A stretch of DNA of 64,000 nt, from the NCBI RefSeq assembly GCF_004217145.1, contig NZ_SHKR01000011.1, forward strand, positions 930,001 to 994,000, read 5' to 3'. The notes beneath the pieces are model-generated. The model had not been told where the DNA came from and searched no databases. It saw only the letters and a program-made list of their open reading frames with translations. Made by a program: the position numbers and the translations under genes. This stretch comes from Kribbella rubisoli. Its GTDB lineage: Bacteria > Actinomycetota > Actinomycetes > Propionibacteriales > Kribbellaceae. Below, piece by piece: positions 23,558-30,283 of this stretch. Numbering within the stretch: position 1 is the stretch's first letter; each line of letters begins with the position of its first letter.

Positions 23558-24808
23558 TCAGGTGAAGAGTTTTTCACCCCAGTGGCCGCCGGGGGTTACG
23601 CCTGGGGGGCAGGCGAAGATGCCGGAGCCTACGTGGTGGATGTACTCGTTCATCGTGTCGCTCTTGGCGAGCTGGTTCTGGATGGGGATGAACTGTTTGC
23701 GGGGGTCGCGTTGGTAGGCGAGGAAGAAGAGGCCCGCGTCGAGGCGACCTAGGCCGTCGGAGCCGTCGACGAAGTTGTAGCCGCGGCGGAGTAGTTCGGC
23801 GCCCTTGTTGAAGGTGGGGTGGGCCAGGCGGACGTGTGAGTCGGCGGGGATCTTCGGCTGGCCGTCGGCCTGCTTGGCGTTGAAGTCGAGCGTGTCGAAC
23901 TCGTCGGACTTGCCCAGCGGAGCACCCGTGCCCTTGCCGCGGCCGATGATGCCTTCCTGTTCGCCGAGCGACGTACGGTCCCAGATCTCGATGTTCATCC
24001 GGATCCGGCGCGAGACCAGGTACGAGCCGCCGACCATCCAGTCCGGGCCGTCCTCGGGCTGCACCCACAGCTGCTGCTCGAGCTTGTCGGCGTCTTCGAG
24101 CTTGAGGTTGTTGGTGCCGTCCTTGAAGCCGAACAGGTTCCGCGGCGTCGACTGCGCCCGCGACGTCGACGACGTACGGCCGAAGCCGAGCTGCGAATAC
24201 CGTACGGCGACGCGTCCGAAGCCGATCCGTGCCAGGTTGCGGATCGCGTGTACTGCGACCTGCGGGTCGTCGGAGCAGGCCTGTACGGCGATGTCGCCGT
24301 ACGAGCGGGTCGGGTCGAGGTCGTCGCCGATGAAGTGCGGCAGGTCGACGAGTGCCTTCGGGCGTTTCGCGGCGAGCCCGAACCGCTTGTCGAACAGGCT
24401 CGGTCCGAACCCGACGGTGATCGTCAACCGCGCCGGCGGCAGCCCGACCGCCTCGCCAGTGTCCTCGGGCGGTGCTTCGTCCGGTCCGTTCACCGCGCCG
24501 TACTGCCCGATGTCGCGACCGGCCGTCAGCAGCGCGGCCGCGGCGGTCCATTCCTTCAGCAGCCCGATCAGCTCGTCCCGGCTCGTCGTCGTCACATCAA
24601 ACGCGGCGAAGTGCAGCCGATCCTGCGCCGGCGTCGTAATCCCCGCCTGATGCGGCCCATGAAACTCAACCGGCCCGGTGTTATCAGCCGCCTGCGAGGG
24701 TTCGCTGGCCAGAGCTGAGTGTGCGGCGTACCCGGCAACCCCGGTCGCGACCGCTGCACCCGCGGCCCCGAACAGGCCGCGCCTCGAGATTCCTTTGCGC
24801 TCGGTCAT
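23558..24808 (-). CDS. efeB: DyP-type heme peroxidase EfeB
   Basis: 416 residues. The N-terminal twin-arginine signal (SRRGLFGAAGAAVATG) predicts Tat export. The dye-decolorising peroxidase hallmark GxxDG is present as GFKDG near residue 227, and AHPTFNKGAELLRRGYNF near the C-terminus is typical of the family. EfeB helps the EfeUO iron-uptake system, by peroxidase or heme-related chemistry outside the membrane; the exact role is debated. The ATG overlaps the efeO stop (ATGA), so the three genes form one operon controlled by the iron boxes upstream of efeU. Confidence 0.92.
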   Translation of the reverse strand: MTERKGISRRGLFGAAGAAVATGVAGYAAHSALASEPSQAADNTGPVEFHGPHQAGITTPAQDRLHFAAFDVTTTSRDELIGLLKEWTAAAALLTAGRDIGQYGAVNGPDEAPPEDTGEAVGLPPARLTITVGFGPSLFDKRFGLAAKRPKALVDLPHFIGDDLDPTRSYGDIAVQACSDDPQVAVHAIRNLARIGFGRVAVRYSQLGFGRTSSTSRAQSTPRNLFGFKDGTNNLKLEDADKLEQQLWVQPEDGPDWMVGGSYLVSRRIRMNIEIWDRTSLGEQEGIIGRGKGTGAPLGKSDEFDTLDFNAKQADGQPKIPADSHVRLAHPTFNKGAELLRRGYNFVDGSDGLGRLDAGLFFLAYQRDPRKQFIPIQNQLAKSDTMNEYIHHVGSGIFACPPGVTPGGHWGEKLFT

Positions 24809-25944
24809 TTCTTTGCGATCACTCCGGCGACCTGGCTGACGGGTTCGGCCAGGCCGTCGACTACGGCGCCGAGGGCCTTCTTCTCTGCCTCGCTTGCCGT
24901 GTACGGCTTGAAGCCGTCGCCGTCGCGGTACTTGTCCAGCGACGCGAACACCGCTTTGAAGTTCGTGTCCAGCTGCGCGACCAGTGCCGCGTCGCGGGAC
25001 TGCAGTGCCGGACGGAGCGCCTGGATCGCGGCCTGCGACCCCTCGACGTTTGCCTGGAAGTCCCACAGGTCGGTGTGTGAGTAGCGGTCCTCCTCGCCGG
25101 TGACCTTGCCGGTCGCGACCTCGTCGAGCAGTTCCTTCGCGCCGTTCGCCAGCTGCAGCGGAGTCAGTTTCACGACCTTGGCCTTCGCGACCACCGTCTT
25201 CACGTCGGTCAGCAACTGGTCGGCGTACTTGTCCATGCCCTTGGTGCTGTTGGAGACCCAGAGCGCCTGCTCGATCCGGTGGTACCCGGTCCACTCGGTG
25301 CCCGGCTCCACATCGTTGACGCGGGCGTCGATCTTCGGGTCCAGGTCACCGAAGGACTCCGCGACCGGCTCGATCCGCTCCCAGTACGTCCGCGACACCG
25401 GGAACAGCGCCTTCGCCTTCGCGACATCACCGGCCTTCACCGCGGTCACGAACTCGGTGGTCTTCTGCTCCAGCGCGATCGCCTGCGAGTTCACGTACCG
25501 CTGGTAGCTCGACGTCGCCTGCTTCAGCTCGGTGTCGGTGTCGACCTGAGCGGGCGCGTCTCCGGTCACGGTCAGGTCGCCGCGGATCCCGTCGCCGACC
25601 ATGCCCGGTTTGCAGACCGCCTGGTACTTGCCGGTCGGCAGCTCGACGATCAGGTCCCGCTTCAGGCCCGGGCCGATGTTCTCGACCTCGCCCATCACCC
25701 GGTCGCCCTCGGCGTACACGTAGAACTCGGTGATCTTGCTGCCGCCGTTGGCGACCGAGAACGTGCTGGTGCCGGACTTCACGTCGCGGCGGCTGAGGTC
25801 ACAACCCGAGTCGGACGCCTTGACCGTCACCGGACCGGTGCCGTCGTCCTTGGCTGCGGGCTCGTCCTTCGCGCACGCGGTCAGCGCGCCGATACTGATG
25901 ACGACGCCGAGGATGGCGGCCCGACGGGGCAATGAGGTGGACAT
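24805..25944 (-). CDS. efeO: Iron-uptake lipoprotein EfeO (cupredoxin + M75 domain)
   Basis: 379 residues. A lipoprotein signal is present (start SLPRRAAILGVVISIGALTA followed by lipobox Cys). Residues ~40-135 are a cupredoxin-like domain (VANGGSKITEFYVYAEGDRV, KYQAVCKPGM). The rest is an imelysin/M75-like helical domain with the HxxE metal motif as HRIE near residue 220 (WTGYHRIEQALW). AGGAGA precedes the ATG. It is exposed outside the membrane, where it is thought to bind iron for the EfeU permease encoded 32 bases upstream. Confidence 0.93.
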   Translation of the reverse strand: MSTSLPRRAAILGVVISIGALTACAKDEPAAKDDGTGPVTVKASDSGCDLSRRDVKSGTSTFSVANGGSKITEFYVYAEGDRVMGEVENIGPGLKRDLIVELPTGKYQAVCKPGMVGDGIRGDLTVTGDAPAQVDTDTELKQATSSYQRYVNSQAIALEQKTTEFVTAVKAGDVAKAKALFPVSRTYWERIEPVAESFGDLDPKIDARVNDVEPGTEWTGYHRIEQALWVSNSTKGMDKYADQLLTDVKTVVAKAKVVKLTPLQLANGAKELLDEVATGKVTGEEDRYSHTDLWDFQANVEGSQAAIQALRPALQSRDAALVAQLDTNFKAVFASLDKYRDGDGFKPYTASEAEKKALGAVVDGLAEPVSQVAGVIAKK

Positions 25945-25976
25945 GGTTCTCCTGAGCGGGGATGTGAGGTGGTGGA

Positions 25977-26828
25977 TCAGGCCGCTTCGCCGGCGGTCTT
26001 GGCCACCGGTACGGGCGGCGGCGTGGAGCTCTTCACCGGACGGAAGTAGAGCACCAGCACCGGGACCAGATAGACGACCCACGCGGTTGCCTCGAGCACG
26101 GTCGGGGTCGGGTTGAAGTTGAAGATGCCCTTGAGCAGTACGCCGTACCAGCTGTCCGGCGGGATCACGTGCGAGATGTCGAAGGCCAGATGCTGGATGC
26201 CCGGCAGGATGCCGGCCTCCTGCAGGTCGTGGAACCCGTACGCGAAGATGCCGGCCGCGACCAGGATCAGCACCGCGCCGGTCCACTTGAAGAACACGGC
26301 CAGGTTGATCTTGACCGCGCCCTTGTAGATCGCGACGCCGAGCAGGACCGAGGTCCCCAGGCCGAGCAGGACGCCGATCAGCGGTACGGCGGTGGTCGCG
26401 GTGGCGGCCGACGCGTACACGATGAACGCGGTCTCGATGCTCTCCCGGAACACCGCCAGGAACGCGAGGATGACGACGGCGCGGGAGCCGACCTCGAGGG
26501 CCTGCCCCATCCGCTCGCGCAGTTCCTTGGCGATGCTGCGGGACGCCTTGCGCATCCAGAAGATCATCCAGGTGACGAAGCCGACCGCGACGATCGACAT
26601 CACCCCGCCGACGGTCTCCTGGGTGGTGAACGACTTTGCGGTCAGCGCGGTGACGAACTGGAGCAGGCCCCAGGCGACCGCCGCGACGCCGAGCGCCGAG
26701 GCGACACCGATCCACACCAGTTTCAGTCGATCGCGATGCCCTGACTTGACCAGGAACGTGGCGAGGATGCTGACAACCAGCGAAGCCTCGAGTCCTTCAC
26801 GGAGTCCGATCAGATAATTCGCGAGCAT
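25977..26828 (-). CDS. efeU: Iron permease EfeU (FTR1 family)
   Basis: 283 residues with seven hydrophobic segments. Both REXXE iron-transport motifs of the FTR1/EfeU family are present: REGLEA at residues 10-15 and FRESIE near residue 128. This is the membrane channel of the EfeUOB system and the first gene of the operon. The promoter region contains two IdeR/DmdR-like boxes, so expression should rise under iron limitation. ATG at 26826-26828. Confidence 0.95.
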   Translation of the reverse strand: MLANYLIGLREGLEASLVVSILATFLVKSGHRDRLKLVWIGVASALGVAAVAWGLLQFVTALTAKSFTTQETVGGVMSIVAVGFVTWMIFWMRKASRSIAKELRERMGQALEVGSRAVVILAFLAVFRESIETAFIVYASAATATTAVPLIGVLLGLGTSVLLGVAIYKGAVKINLAVFFKWTGAVLILVAAGIFAYGFHDLQEAGILPGIQHLAFDISHVIPPDSWYGVLLKGIFNFNPTPTVLEATAWVVYLVPVLVLYFRPVKSSTPPPVPVAKTAGEAA

Positions 26829-26848: not shown

Positions 26849-26882
26849 TTAGGTACGGCTAACCTTGCTGAGGTTAACCTAA
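26849..26882 (-). promoter_or_regulatory. Tandem IdeR/DtxR-like iron boxes upstream of efeUOB
   Basis: TTAGGTACGGCTAACCTTG at 26849-26867 matches 15 of 19 positions of the classical box (TTAGGTTAGGCTAACCTAA). A second site, TGAGGTTAACCTAA at 26869-26882, contains the perfect palindrome AGGTTAACCT. Both lie within 55 bp of the efeU start, and the second overlaps the stop codon of thpR. Iron-loaded IdeR/DmdR would repress efeUOB here. Confidence 0.8.
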
Positions 26883-27437
26883 GAAATCCCATTCGCCTAC
26901 TGTGTCGTACGCCGCACTGTGCCCCGGACCCTCACCGAGCCGGGATTCGATCAGACGCAGGCTGCCCGCGGTCCAGACCGGACCGTCGTACGTGTCGAAA
27001 ACCCTGACCCACCTGGTCACGTCGATCGGCCGCCGCAACCTGGCCAACGTGACATGCGGGGTGAACTTCCGGCCCTCGACGGCAACGCCGGCGCGACTCG
27101 CCGCCGCTCGCGTGGTCGTCGACAAATGCTTGAGCGATTCGGTGTCGTCGCGCACTCCGGCGTACAGCACCCGTGCGTCCGGTACGCCGGGGAACGCGCC
27201 CGCGCCGGTGAGCTGCAACTCGAACGGCTTCTGCCGTTGTGCAGCCGATTCGAGCCGCTCCTCGAGCTCCTCGGTCTTCCAGTCCGGTACGTCGCCGAGG
27301 AACGCCAGCGTGATGTGCCAGTGCTGGTCCGAGGCCCACCGGATGTCGTCATCCGGATGCTCCCGCCGCGGCTCGACGAACTCGTTCAGATCCTCCACAA
27401 CTTCGATGGGTGGCACCACGGCCACGAACAATCGCAT
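26874..27437 (-). CDS. thpR: RNA 2',3'-cyclic phosphodiesterase (2'-5' RNA ligase family)
   Basis: 187 residues, 2H phosphoesterase fold. The two HxT motifs that form the active site are present: H41 in HWHITLAF and H128 in TPHVTLARL, with normal spacing. The family hydrolyses 2',3'-cyclic phosphate ends of RNA; physiological role in bacteria is unclear. Its stop lies inside the second iron box, so readthrough from this gene into efeUOB would pass the IdeR sites. Divergent from the riboswitch-led MFS gene. Confidence 0.88.
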   Translation of the reverse strand: MRLFVAVVPPIEVVEDLNEFVEPRREHPDDDIRWASDQHWHITLAFLGDVPDWKTEELEERLESAAQRQKPFELQLTGAGAFPGVPDARVLYAGVRDDTESLKHLSTTTRAAASRAGVAVEGRKFTPHVTLARLRRPIDVTRWVRVFDTYDGPVWTAGSLRLIESRLGEGPGHSAAYDTVGEWDFLG

Positions 27438-27497
27438 CCCCCGAGATTAGGCGGTCCGAGGTGCGGACCGCGTGTTAATTTGGGGGTCGATCGACAG

Positions 27498-27600
27498 GAC
27501 GTGGCTAGGGTTCCGCCGCCCGCGGGCGGGCTGGTCCGAGCGCCACGACCCACCGCGACGGTGGGCATCTGAAGGGGCAAAAGCCTGGTAGGGCGACGTC
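27498..27600 (+). ncRNA. ykkC-family riboswitch (probably guanidine-I)
   Basis: The conserved ykkC-yxkD core is readable in order. CGTGGC (27500-27505) pairs with GCCACG (27542-27547). Inside lie CTAGGGTTCCG (27505-27515), a GC-rich hairpin (27516-27530) and CTGGTCCGAG (27531-27540). A second hairpin follows (ACCCACC/GGTGGG, 27548-27565), then GGGGCAAAAGCCTGGTAGGG (27574-27593). GACGT/ACGTC can close the outer helix. The last conserved block differs slightly from the B. subtilis ykkC leader. Subtype 1 senses guanidine; subtypes 2a-2d sense ppGpp, PRPP or nucleotides and cannot be excluded by eye. It precedes the MFS start by about 40 bases. Confidence 0.85.
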
Positions 27601-27641
27601 GGCGCACTTGACCGTGCCGTCGAACGCCCGAGGTGATGTCC

Positions 27642-28811
27642 GTGTTCCGTCGTCCCGCCGACTTTCGTTCCGTCCTTGCGCTGCCCCGGATCAAGTCCCT
27701 GGCCGTGAGTTCGCTGCTGGCCCGGATGCCGAAAGGCATCATGCCGCTGACGCTGGTGCTGCTGGTGACGCAGCGGACCGGGTCGTACGCGCTCGCCGGC
27801 ACGGTGACCGCGCTCTTCGCACTCGGCGACGCGGCGACCGCTCCCTGGCAAGGTCGCCTGGTTGATCGATTCGGGTACGCCCGGGTGCTGATCCCGATCG
27901 CCGTAGTCCACGTGGCGGCCACGATCGGTCTCGTCAGCACGAGGACTCCCGCAGTCCTCGGCGCACTGGCTGTCCTGGCCGGTCTCGGCGTACCACCGAT
28001 CTCCGGAGCCGTGAAAGCCTTGTGGGCGGAGATGGTCAGCGAAGACCAACTCCCGGCGGCGTACGCGATGGAATCCCTGCTGCAGCAGAGCTTCTTCCTC
28101 TTCGGGCCCCTGCTGGCGACCGGACTGATCGCACTCGCCGGGCCCCCCGTCGCCGCGCTCACAGCCGCCATATTGGTTGCCGGAGGCACCTTTGGTTTCG
28201 TCCTGGCAGCTGGTCCGCGCCGCCCCCGTCCACACGAGCGTTTGCGCCACGGCGCCTTGCGGATAGCCGCGGTCCGGATCCTGACTGCGAGCACCTTGCT
28301 GCAGAGTCTGACGTACGGCGTTCTGCCGATCGCGCTCGTTGCCTCGGCAGCACGGGCCGGCGCACCGACGACGGCCGGAATCGTCCAAGCGACACTGACC
28401 CTCGGTGGACTGATCGGGGGCATGCTCGATGGATCGAGAGACTACGTCCGGCTGATGGTGTGGTTCGGGTGTGGGCTGGTGCCCCTGTCGATCTTCGCCG
28501 CTATCGAGTCCCCGGCCGGCCTGATCGGGCTGGCAGTCACGCTGACGGCGACCGGCCTGCTGGCTACGCCGCTGGCCATGTCCGGATACCTGTTGATCAG
28601 CCGCGCGACGCCGGCCGATTGCCGCACCGAGGCGTTCGCCTGGCAGTCGACCGGCCTGGCGATCGGTACGGCGCTCGGATCCGCGCTCGGCGGGACATTG
28701 GTCGACCGCGGTGGCCCCGCGCTCGCGTTCGCCGTACCGCCTGTCGCAGTCGGGCTCGCTGCGAGCCTGGCCGCGACGCTCCGGAGGCGGATGCCTTCCG
28801 TCTTCGGCTGA
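27642..28811 (+). CDS. MFS transporter under ykkC riboswitch control
   Basis: About 389 residues, 12 hydrophobic segments, with the MFS loop DAATAPWQGRLVDRFGYAR after helix 2. I choose the GTG at 27642 because a perfect GAGGTGAT anti-16S match lies at 27630-27637; a GTG at 27633 and an ATG at 27636 are also in frame but would overlap that site. The riboswitch just upstream implies that the pump is induced by its ligand; if this is a guanidine-I type, guanidine or guanidinylated compounds are candidate export substrates. The stop overlaps the next start as TGATG. Confidence 0.85.
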   Translation: MFRRPADFRSVLALPRIKSLAVSSLLARMPKGIMPLTLVLLVTQRTGSYALAGTVTALFALGDAATAPWQGRLVDRFGYARVLIPIAVVHVAATIGLVSTRTPAVLGALAVLAGLGVPPISGAVKALWAEMVSEDQLPAAYAMESLLQQSFFLFGPLLATGLIALAGPPVAALTAAILVAGGTFGFVLAAGPRRPRPHERLRHGALRIAAVRILTASTLLQSLTYGVLPIALVASAARAGAPTTAGIVQATLTLGGLIGGMLDGSRDYVRLMVWFGCGLVPLSIFAAIESPAGLIGLAVTLTATGLLATPLAMSGYLLISRATPADCRTEAFAWQSTGLAIGTALGSALGGTLVDRGGPALAFAVPPVAVGLAASLAATLRRRMPSVFG

Positions 28812-30283
28812 TGTCGCGTCAGACTGCGGCAATGGACGAGTTGAAGCTGCCGTCGCCGTGCGTGGTGATCCTGGTCGGGCCGGGCGCCTCGGGGAAGTCG
28901 ACGTGGGCGGCGGAGCGGTTCGGGGCAGACCTGATCGTGTCGAGTGATCGGTTGCGGGCGTTGGTCGGGGCCGGTGAGGACGATATTGCGGCCAGTGCGG
29001 ATGCATTCGCGTTGCTGGATGTCGTGGTGCGGCAACGAATCGGGCGGCGGCTGACGACTGTTATCGACACCCTGGGACTGGACAGAGAACGACGCGCGGC
29101 GTGGCTCGGATTGGCGCGGGAAGCTGGAATGCCCTGTGTGGCCGTGGGTTTCGACACGCCGGCCGCGGAGTGCCGGAGACGGAATCGGGAGCGGGACTCG
29201 AAGCGGATTCCGGCCGATGTGCTGACCTCGCAACTGAAGTCGTGGGCGGCGACCAAGAAGGAGCTGGCGGACGAAGGGTACGACCAAGTTCTGCAACCGA
29301 CGGCTGTCCGAGTGGTTCCCGAGGCATTTGTCGAGGCAGGCGCGGCGGCCGTGCGGCAGGCGGAGAGGCCGAGCGGGCTGCGGTTCGGTTTGCAGTTGAG
29401 CAGCTACACGCATCCAGGTGGTCGGGCGGGGATGGCTTCGTGGGTGCGGGACGTGGCCGCGCGGGCGGAGGCGGTCGGGTTTGATGCGATCTACGTCATG
29501 GATCACTTCCGGCAGATTCCGCAGGTGGGGCGGGCCTGGGACGACTTCCTGGAGAGTTGGACGACGCTTGGGTATCTGGCTGCCTGTACGACGCGTGTGC
29601 GGCTCGGCACGCTGGTCTCAGGGATCACGTATCGGAACGTCGCGCATCTCGGGAAGATCGCGGCGACGCTCGACGTACTGAGTGGTGGGCGCGCGGTGTG
29701 TGGGGTCGGGCTCGCGTGGTTCGAGGCCGAGCACAAGGCTTATGGGTGGTCGTTCCCGCCGGTGGGTGAGCGGTATGCCCTGCTCGAGGACGCGTTGCAG
29801 TTGCTGCCGGTTTTGTGGGGACCAGGCAACAAACCGTTCCACGGCAAGGTTCTCGACGTACCGGACACGACCTGCTACCCGCGACCGTTGCAGGAACACC
29901 TGCCAGTGCTCGTGGGTGGGAGTGGGCCGCGAACCCTCAGGCTCGCCGCGCGCTACGCCGACGCCGTGAATGTGTTCGGCGACGTCGCCGCAGTACGGAA
30001 GGCCGCAACCCACCTCGGGGACAGACCCGTCGAGCTGACGCATCTGTCGACAACGCTCGTGGGCAAGGACTCTCAGGAGGTCGACCAGCTCGTCCAGAAG
30101 CTGCGACCGCGCAACGTGAACCCGGCCCGGTACGCCGCGATGGTGAACGCGGGCACGGTGGACGATCAGATCGGGCGGTTCCGCGAGCTGTCCGAGGCGG
30201 GTGTGGCCGAGGTGATGATCAGCCTGCCCGACCTCGAGACGCTCGACACGGTCGCCGACGTGATCTCAGCCTTCCGGGTGTAG
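28811..30283 (+). CDS. P-loop NTPase (kinase-like) fused to LLM-class F420-dependent oxidoreductase
   Basis: 490 residues. Residues ~10-190 are a small AAA/polynucleotide-kinase-like P-loop domain with Walker A GPGASGKST near residue 24, IVSSDRLRAL after it and a lid-like RRRNRERDSKR segment. Residues ~190-490 are a luciferase-like monooxygenase fold of the F420-dependent type (LRFGLQLSSYTHPGG, FDAIYVMDHF, RVRLGTLVSGITYRNVAHLGK, GRAVCGVGLAWFEAEH). The start overlaps the MFS stop, so both genes share the riboswitch-led transcript. The combination suggests phosphorylation plus redox chemistry on one substrate, but this is inference. A second in-frame ATG lies at 28832. Confidence 0.8.
   Translation: MSRQTAAMDELKLPSPCVVILVGPGASGKSTWAAERFGADLIVSSDRLRALVGAGEDDIAASADAFALLDVVVRQRIGRRLTTVIDTLGLDRERRAAWLGLAREAGMPCVAVGFDTPAAECRRRNRERDSKRIPADVLTSQLKSWAATKKELADEGYDQVLQPTAVRVVPEAFVEAGAAAVRQAERPSGLRFGLQLSSYTHPGGRAGMASWVRDVAARAEAVGFDAIYVMDHFRQIPQVGRAWDDFLESWTTLGYLAACTTRVRLGTLVSGITYRNVAHLGKIAATLDVLSGGRAVCGVGLAWFEAEHKAYGWSFPPVGERYALLEDALQLLPVLWGPGNKPFHGKVLDVPDTTCYPRPLQEHLPVLVGGSGPRTLRLAARYADAVNVFGDVAAVRKAATHLGDRPVELTHLSTTLVGKDSQEVDQLVQKLRPRNVNPARYAAMVNAGTVDDQIGRFRELSEAGVAEVMISLPDLETLDTVADVISAFRV

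Follow-up and report, generated by a model that had tools for sequence, protein, structure and literature searches.

A ykkC-fold RNA before an MFS gene in Kribbella rubisoli is probably a non-guanidine riboswitch of orphan subtype 2d or a close offshoot

What does a ykkC-family RNA sense when the gene that follows it encodes an MFS transporter? The question is raised by a locus of Kribbella rubisoli that lies in the stretch of DNA analysed here (the window; 64,000 nucleotides, contig C1:930001-994000 of an 8.6-Mb genome). The initial annotation saw a ykkC riboswitch with all conserved blocks, and suggested that the MFS protein may export guanidine or a guanidinylated compound and that a fused enzyme encoded downstream may process such a compound. 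We consider it likely that the RNA is a riboswitch on the ykkC fold that belongs to a non-guanidine branch, either orphan subtype 2d itself or a lineage that split off close to it, and that it controls an MFS exporter.

The RNA occupies positions 27494–27593 (+) and matches all 107 positions of the RF00442 (Guanidine-I) model end to end. Its E value, 3.7e-11 in the local stretch and 2.6e-10 in the whole genome, argues against a chance match and bears out the claim that a ykkC-family RNA stands upstream of the MFS gene; no other Rfam family matched the local stretch at E values up to 10. The altered pocket leaves the score at 62.9 bits, 0.1 bit below the gathering score of 63, and an Rfam scan of the whole 64-kb window at gathering thresholds gave no matches. 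The annotation had named a covariance score below threshold as evidence against itself, and taken literally that is the result, by 0.1 bit. The RF00442 scan of the genome also found a second ykkC RNA elsewhere, a canonical guanidine-I RNA of 74.3 bits.

Helices P1, P1a/b, P2 and P3 can all be drawn in the window RNA. In the RF00442 alignment, the 5′ strand of P1 (27500–27505, +) pairs with its 3′ strand (27542–27547, +), the P2 hairpin CCCACCG/CGGUGGG spans 27549–27565 (+), and P3 with the S-turn region, CAUCUGAAGGGGCAAAAGCCUGGUAGGG, spans 27566–27593 (+); covariation supports P1 and P2. Directly 5′ of the aptamer lies TTAATTT (27475–27481, +), a putative −10-like element picked out from the sequence and unscored. 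TANNNT-like stretches precede many related RNAs when these are inspected by eye. An inverted repeat, GGTCCG-AGGTG-CGGACC (27453–27469), sits between the aptamer and the divergent LigT gene; genus mates G037 and G015 do not show it in this form.

Covariation was assessed in 88 distinct aligned RNAs, the window RNA included. The covariation score was 0.293 against 0.114 for shuffled alignments (0/500 shuffles as high), a result favoured by the fitting of the alignment to a structure-based model, and it dropped to 0.03–0.09 when the partners were slid. Standard pairs are formed in 90.7% of cells. By a weaker measure, 11 pairs changed on both sides against 9.0 after shuffling, with 30 of 500 shuffles as high. 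Most covarying changes sit in P1 and P2. Of the three P3 pairs, two are invariant and one is broken in 51 of the 88 RNAs; the drawn pairs that fail often are columns 23/105 (46 of 83 cells) and 185/197 (51 of 88).

The base that distinguishes guanidine riboswitches is changed in the window RNA. Guanidine RNAs carry an A at position 46 and subtypes 2a and 2b a pyrimidine, and sorting ykkC RNAs by this base splits guanidine-related gene contexts from others (available text of Knappenberger et al., PMC6031431). The equivalent of A46 in the window, within GGUCCGAGCG, is a C (27541), the diagnostic non-guanidine base of a GAGCG segment at 27538–27542 (+) placed by alignment and RNA comparison. The RNA therefore lacks the conserved A of guanidine-I and has, on a ykkC fold, the pyrimidine of subtype 2. 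Relative to guanidine-I (ykkC subtype 1, RF00442), it shares the overall fold and the generic blocks CUAGGGUUCCG, CUGGUCCGAG and AAAAGCC, but the S-turn strands CACGG and CGGGAG are replaced by AUCUGA and UGGUAG, and the model score and gene context differ as well. The statement that all conserved blocks are present thus holds for the generic blocks and fails for those of the guanidine-I pocket. One guanidine-I-like trait is kept, an extra nucleotide in the second strand (GG-U-AGG; GG-G-AG in guanidine-I).

The same split runs through the relatives. We compared 70 RNAs from the window's genome and related genomes, of which a regular expression caught 65 and the five uncaught were dropped. Thirty-seven of the 65 have A at the diagnostic position (A-type), and all 37 carry the guanidine-I blocks CACGG/CGGGAG; none of the 37 stands before a gene homologous to the EamA, TauE or MFS proteins of the reference set. 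One RNA has G at this position together with the guanidine-I blocks. The remaining 27 (C-type, the window included) precede 17 EamA genes, five TauE genes, three MFS genes (the window counted), one methyltransferase gene and one other gene, counts that are partly self-matching because the reference proteins were drawn from C-type loci. Within the genus, the C-type RNAs of G026 and G034 precede EamA genes. We rejected guanidine-I membership of the window RNA on its pocket bases (C at 27541, AUCUGA/UGGUAG).

EamA and TauE are the genes of a described ykkC subtype. According to the available text of a 2020 review (PMC7266159), the transporters regulated by subtype 2d RNAs are EamA (formerly phn_DUF6) and TauE, and the class is an orphan one of undetermined ligand; the available text of PMC5912903, which uses phn_DUF6 as the name of the 2d genes, places the 2d consensus nearest to that of guanidine-I and proposes as ligand a toxic compound that is small and charged. 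A search of named genomes with a C-type signature pattern gave at least 118 stretches, from which at least 80 loci were taken; the pattern was written from known C-type examples, so the sample is biased, and three loci (L143, L179 and L184) repeat genomes seen before. Among the matches listed, the downstream gene could be classified in 75 of these loci, with 69 EamA genes (one of another EamA sub-family) and six TauE genes (one of them, in L142, assigned from a short match with E 4e-7); none of the 75 has an MFS gene downstream. The DNA ends too soon downstream in the five of 80 listed loci that were left unclassified. TIGR03340 phn_DUF6 was the best NCBIfam match, below cut-off, of four of five EamA-type proteins tested, and 2A78 that of the fifth (L068). 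Judged by their EamA and TauE genes, then, the C-type RNAs are subtype 2d.

Two further variants turned up among the C-type RNAs. A CACCU/CUCGAG form of the pocket strands occurs in L146, L062, L064, L065, L068 and L069, before the other EamA sub-family (2A78 was the best match for L068, the sole one tested). The other is a C-type ykkC RNA at L061:1501-1619, whose 3′ block differs (CAUCUCCGGGAGAGAAACCCAGGGAGG); it lies in a genome belonging to the same class, before an ORF that resembles guaA (GMP synthase) by eye. The 257 PRPP (2b) RNAs in the available text of PMC5912903 are described as coming from Firmicutes.

Covariance models built for this comparison place the window RNA on the 2d side, though nearer the border than most 2d RNAs. 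Model R2 was made from 45 EamA/TauE RNAs and R3 from 30 guanidine-I RNAs; the window's branch is in neither, although R1, the model to which both alignments were fitted, contains it. The window RNA scores 76.8 bits with R2 and 61.9 with R3, a margin of +14.9. Ten held-out EamA RNAs have margins of +28.5 to +49.0 (L143 was not counted among them because it equals training member L034), and eleven RNAs with guanidine-I blocks favour R3 by 23.8 to 58.4, a test set that includes near copies of training members (L011, L076). The window's relatives are likewise intermediate (G037 +14.5, G050 +15.5, G023 +11.9, G015 +10.9); a divergent EamA RNA, L077, has +16.5, an MFS-associated RNA, L060, has +24.5, and the guaA-associated L061 is slightly better with the guanidine-I model (−1.4). 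The placement rests on gene association and on these models rather than on the published 2d consensus drawing. With subtype 2d the window RNA shares the fold, the pyrimidine at the diagnostic base, a transporter gene directly downstream and the pocket signature, GAGCG and CAUCUGA, that EamA/TauE-associated RNAs carry. It differs in its smaller margin, in an extra U in the S-turn strand, in a platform hairpin that abuts rather than covers the Shine-Dalgarno, and in its gene, which is MFS_1 rather than EamA/phn_DUF6 or TauE.

The MFS transporter gene lies at 27642–28811 (+) and encodes 389 aa (PF07690, E 9.2e-23). Starts at GTG 27633 and ATG 27636 are also possible; GTG 27642 was chosen because the ATG of G037 aligns there. 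From the aptamer end to these starts is 40–49 nt, in agreement with the roughly 40 bases first noted. No solved structure related to the protein was found at E 0.01. The MFS of L060 was considered as a member of one close family with it and rejected, as the two have no significant similarity though both match PF07690. In the genus, a full-length MFS of at least 70% identity is present in two of 38 genomes; the G037 protein is 71% identical to that of the window (genome G000), with dN 0.22 and dS 0.72 (dN/dS ∼0.3). G023 has a frameshifted MFS gene with a well-kept RNA, and G015 a decayed RNA with only a remnant of the MFS gene. Across genera, MFS homologues matched in 76 of 394 genomes; an R1 search of 29 such loci of other genera (32–38% identity) found no RNA, with one chance match of 7.2 bits (E 7.3), and window-type MFS relatives in other genera were therefore dropped as further targets.

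How the RNA could act is suggested by the EamA and TauE loci. There, the aptamer 3′ end is complementary to a Shine-Dalgarno segment 22–52 nt downstream of AAAAGCC, and the two change together (GGACCC/GGGUCC, GGAACC/GGUUCC, GGAGCC/GGCUCC, GGCUCC/GGAGUC). In 73 distinct loci and a fixed zone, the longest Watson-Crick run averages 5.52; permuting the partners lowers this to 4.49 (sd 0.09), and none of 300 permutations is as high. A run of at least 5 occurs in 61 of the 73, in statistics that ignore relatedness. Some tails match poorly, namely GGAUCU (five loci, runs of 4), GGAUCC (two loci, 3–4) and five single odd tails (four at 2–4). A zone based on the start codon gives a weaker signal in 63 loci (5.54, with 4.72 for tails that were shuffled; 47 of the 63 loci exceed their own mean). 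The covariation of tail and Shine-Dalgarno fits a translational ON switch at these loci.

The exact pairing of the EamA loci is missing in the window. Its leader has only an abutting hairpin, predicted by minimum-free-energy folding at 27591–27629 (+), in which GGGCG (27591–27595), overlapping the aptamer 3′ end, pairs with CGCCC (27625–27629), ending just before the Shine-Dalgarno GAGGTG (27630–27635, +). GAGGTG is found at a like place in G037 and G023, and the G023 sequence has a counterpart of the hairpin, GCGAG with CUCGC. The whole leader of the window folds no more stably than shuffled sequences (z −0.93). We infer an ON switch both because of this arrangement and because the available text of PMC6031431 describes guanidine-I, PRPP and ppGpp RNAs as ON switches. 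Without ligand, the aptamer 3′ end (GGUAGGG...) would be base-paired to the sequence adjoining the Shine-Dalgarno, holding back translation of the MFS gene; with ligand in the P3/S-turn pocket, the aptamer would take up its 3′ end, free the ribosome site and allow the pump to be made.

The gene downstream of the MFS gene looks like a bystander. It encodes a fusion of an AAA_33 kinase-like domain and an F420-type LLM domain (28811–30283, +; PF13671, PF00296; alternative ATG at 28832) and runs in the same direction, its start overlapping the MFS stop (TGATG). To the left, a divergent LigT-type RNA 2′,3′-cyclic phosphodiesterase gene (26874–27437, −; TIGR02258) borders what appear to be the inserted RNA and MFS gene. 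Farther left (23558–26828, −) are an EfeU iron permease gene (NCBIfam) and then, by eye, genes for an EfeO-like protein and a Tat-exported DyP-type peroxidase. Of 38 genus genomes, 34 carry the fusion gene unbroken and two carry it in pieces; in the other two it was not found. Among 30 fusion loci examined, the RNA is present in three (G000, G037 and G015) and absent from 27, and a genome-wide search found no further RNA beside a fusion gene. LigT stands within 1.5 kb upstream of the fusion gene in 29 of the 30; 26 have LigT and no RNA, with a gap to the fusion start of 30–34 nt in 18 and of 45–757 nt in eight. The fusion proteins most identical to that of the window, in G009 (94%) and G010 (93%), belong to loci without RNA and MFS gene, and that of G015 is 92% identical. 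In G023 the RNA and MFS gene (RNA at C1:3732022) are far from the fusion gene (C1:962403).

From these comparisons, the RNA and the MFS gene appear to come together and separately from the fusion enzyme, whether by transfer or by repeated loss. The RNA of G023 has so far survived longer than an intact MFS gene beside it. The suggestion that the fused enzyme processes the ligand is not borne out, and since the fusion gene also resides in genus mates that lack the RNA we do not count it as part of the system. It would be co-directional only because the RNA and MFS gene sit between LigT and a resident gene.

Several other explanations of the RNA deserve to be weighed against a riboswitch of, or next to, subtype 2d. 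That it is a guanidine-I riboswitch with the MFS protein as guanidine exporter is very improbable: the general fold, the near-threshold RF00442 match and the 61.9 bits still scored with the guanidine-I model speak for it, but the diagnostic C and altered pocket blocks speak against it, as do a canonical guanidine-I RNA elsewhere in the genome and the fact that related C-type RNAs mostly precede EamA and TauE genes. Guanidine as ligand, as first suggested, is disfavoured by the absence of the blocks found in all 37 A-type RNAs, and these points together with the placement on the 2d side make a guanidine exporter unlikely. A shade less probable still is a ppGpp, PRPP or NDP riboswitch (subtypes 2a–2c). 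The pyrimidine at the diagnostic base is common to 2a and 2b, and a 4-bp outer pairing, CGAC/GUCG, may form that would be comparable to helix P0 in PRPP RNAs (the base and the helix are both described in the available text of PMC6031431); this putative P0 is also possible, by eye and invariantly, in five of five members of the window's branch, and the genes are an MFS transporter gene followed by the LLM fusion gene rather than amino-acid, purine or NUDIX/HAD genes. We give least credence to a decaying relic without function. Such decay is seen in G015, whose RNA has lost conserved bases along with most of the MFS gene, and the MFS gene of G023 is frameshifted, but the window and G037 keep the branch-conserved core bases and an intact MFS gene under a dN/dS of ∼0.3, and RNA decay that accompanies MFS loss is what a working pair would be expected to leave.

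Closer to the reading of subtype 2d or a close offshoot is the idea of a separate ykkC specificity with a ligand of its own, common to the MFS-associated RNAs of the genus and the methyltransferase-associated RNA of G050; we think this rather unlikely. By eye, the five RNAs of this branch (the window, G037, G023, G015 and G050) have ACNGGACGUGGC 5′ ends in common, all contain an extra U (GGUAGG, GGUUGAG), and all could form the CGAC/GUCG outer pairing. Their margins of R2 over R3 are intermediate (+10.9 to +15.5), and their genes are different ones (MFS, methyltransferase). Against this, many EamA/TauE RNAs also have the GAGCG and CAUCUGA signature, and the EamA-associated L077 has a similar margin (+16.5). 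It is conceivable, if doubtful, that the branch evolved its specificity from the 2d pocket, for a toxic metabolite of its own, and that RNA and exporter moved as a self-regulated resistance cassette that landed between LigT and the resident enzyme gene.

On the reading that we prefer, subtype 2d or a close offshoot, the MFS protein of the window would do the job done elsewhere by EamA/phn_DUF6 or TauE transporters. Several target genes bear on the ligand. C-type RNAs precede genes for EamA, TauE, the window MFS, the L060 MFS (weakly similar to ArsK) and, outside the genus, a SAM-dependent methyltransferase (L037:5143-5982) directly after the RNA of the window's branch in G050. Among the matches listed, a VOC (glyoxalase/FosA-like) gene occurs in at least 15 of the 80 named loci, in Amycolatopsis and Saccharopolyspora, and within 2 kb of the RNA in 14, downstream of EamA (L204, L141, L145, L209, L150, L163, L193, L216, L200, L185, L157, L210, L213 and L187; L199 at a distance); a GNAT gene follows EamA in at least three, in Microbacterium (L139, L191 and L215). 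The window MFS, the fusion and the methyltransferase have no match among the 80 listed loci. These targets would be typical of exporting or defusing a toxic compound, and the ligand is probably a small toxic compound related to guanidine, but not guanidine.

According to the initial annotation this association is not known to be described, and MFS genes are not listed for ykkC subtypes in the available text of PMC7266159 and PMC5912903. Literature searches that covered sources other than the three primary subtype papers found no paper on an MFS-linked ykkC riboswitch in Actinobacteria, from which we do not claim absence from print, and no later report of a 2d ligand.

The window RNA belongs to an orphan class that is already known, and with it the 2d target list grows from EamA and TauE to include two dissimilar MFS transporters, a methyltransferase and, in some genera, VOC and GNAT genes near EamA. 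The covarying platform of the EamA and TauE loci offers a concrete ON-switch model for compound screens with translational reporters. Each added target gene narrows the ligand search for 2d, the ykkC subtype whose ligand is still being sought (available text of PMC7266159).
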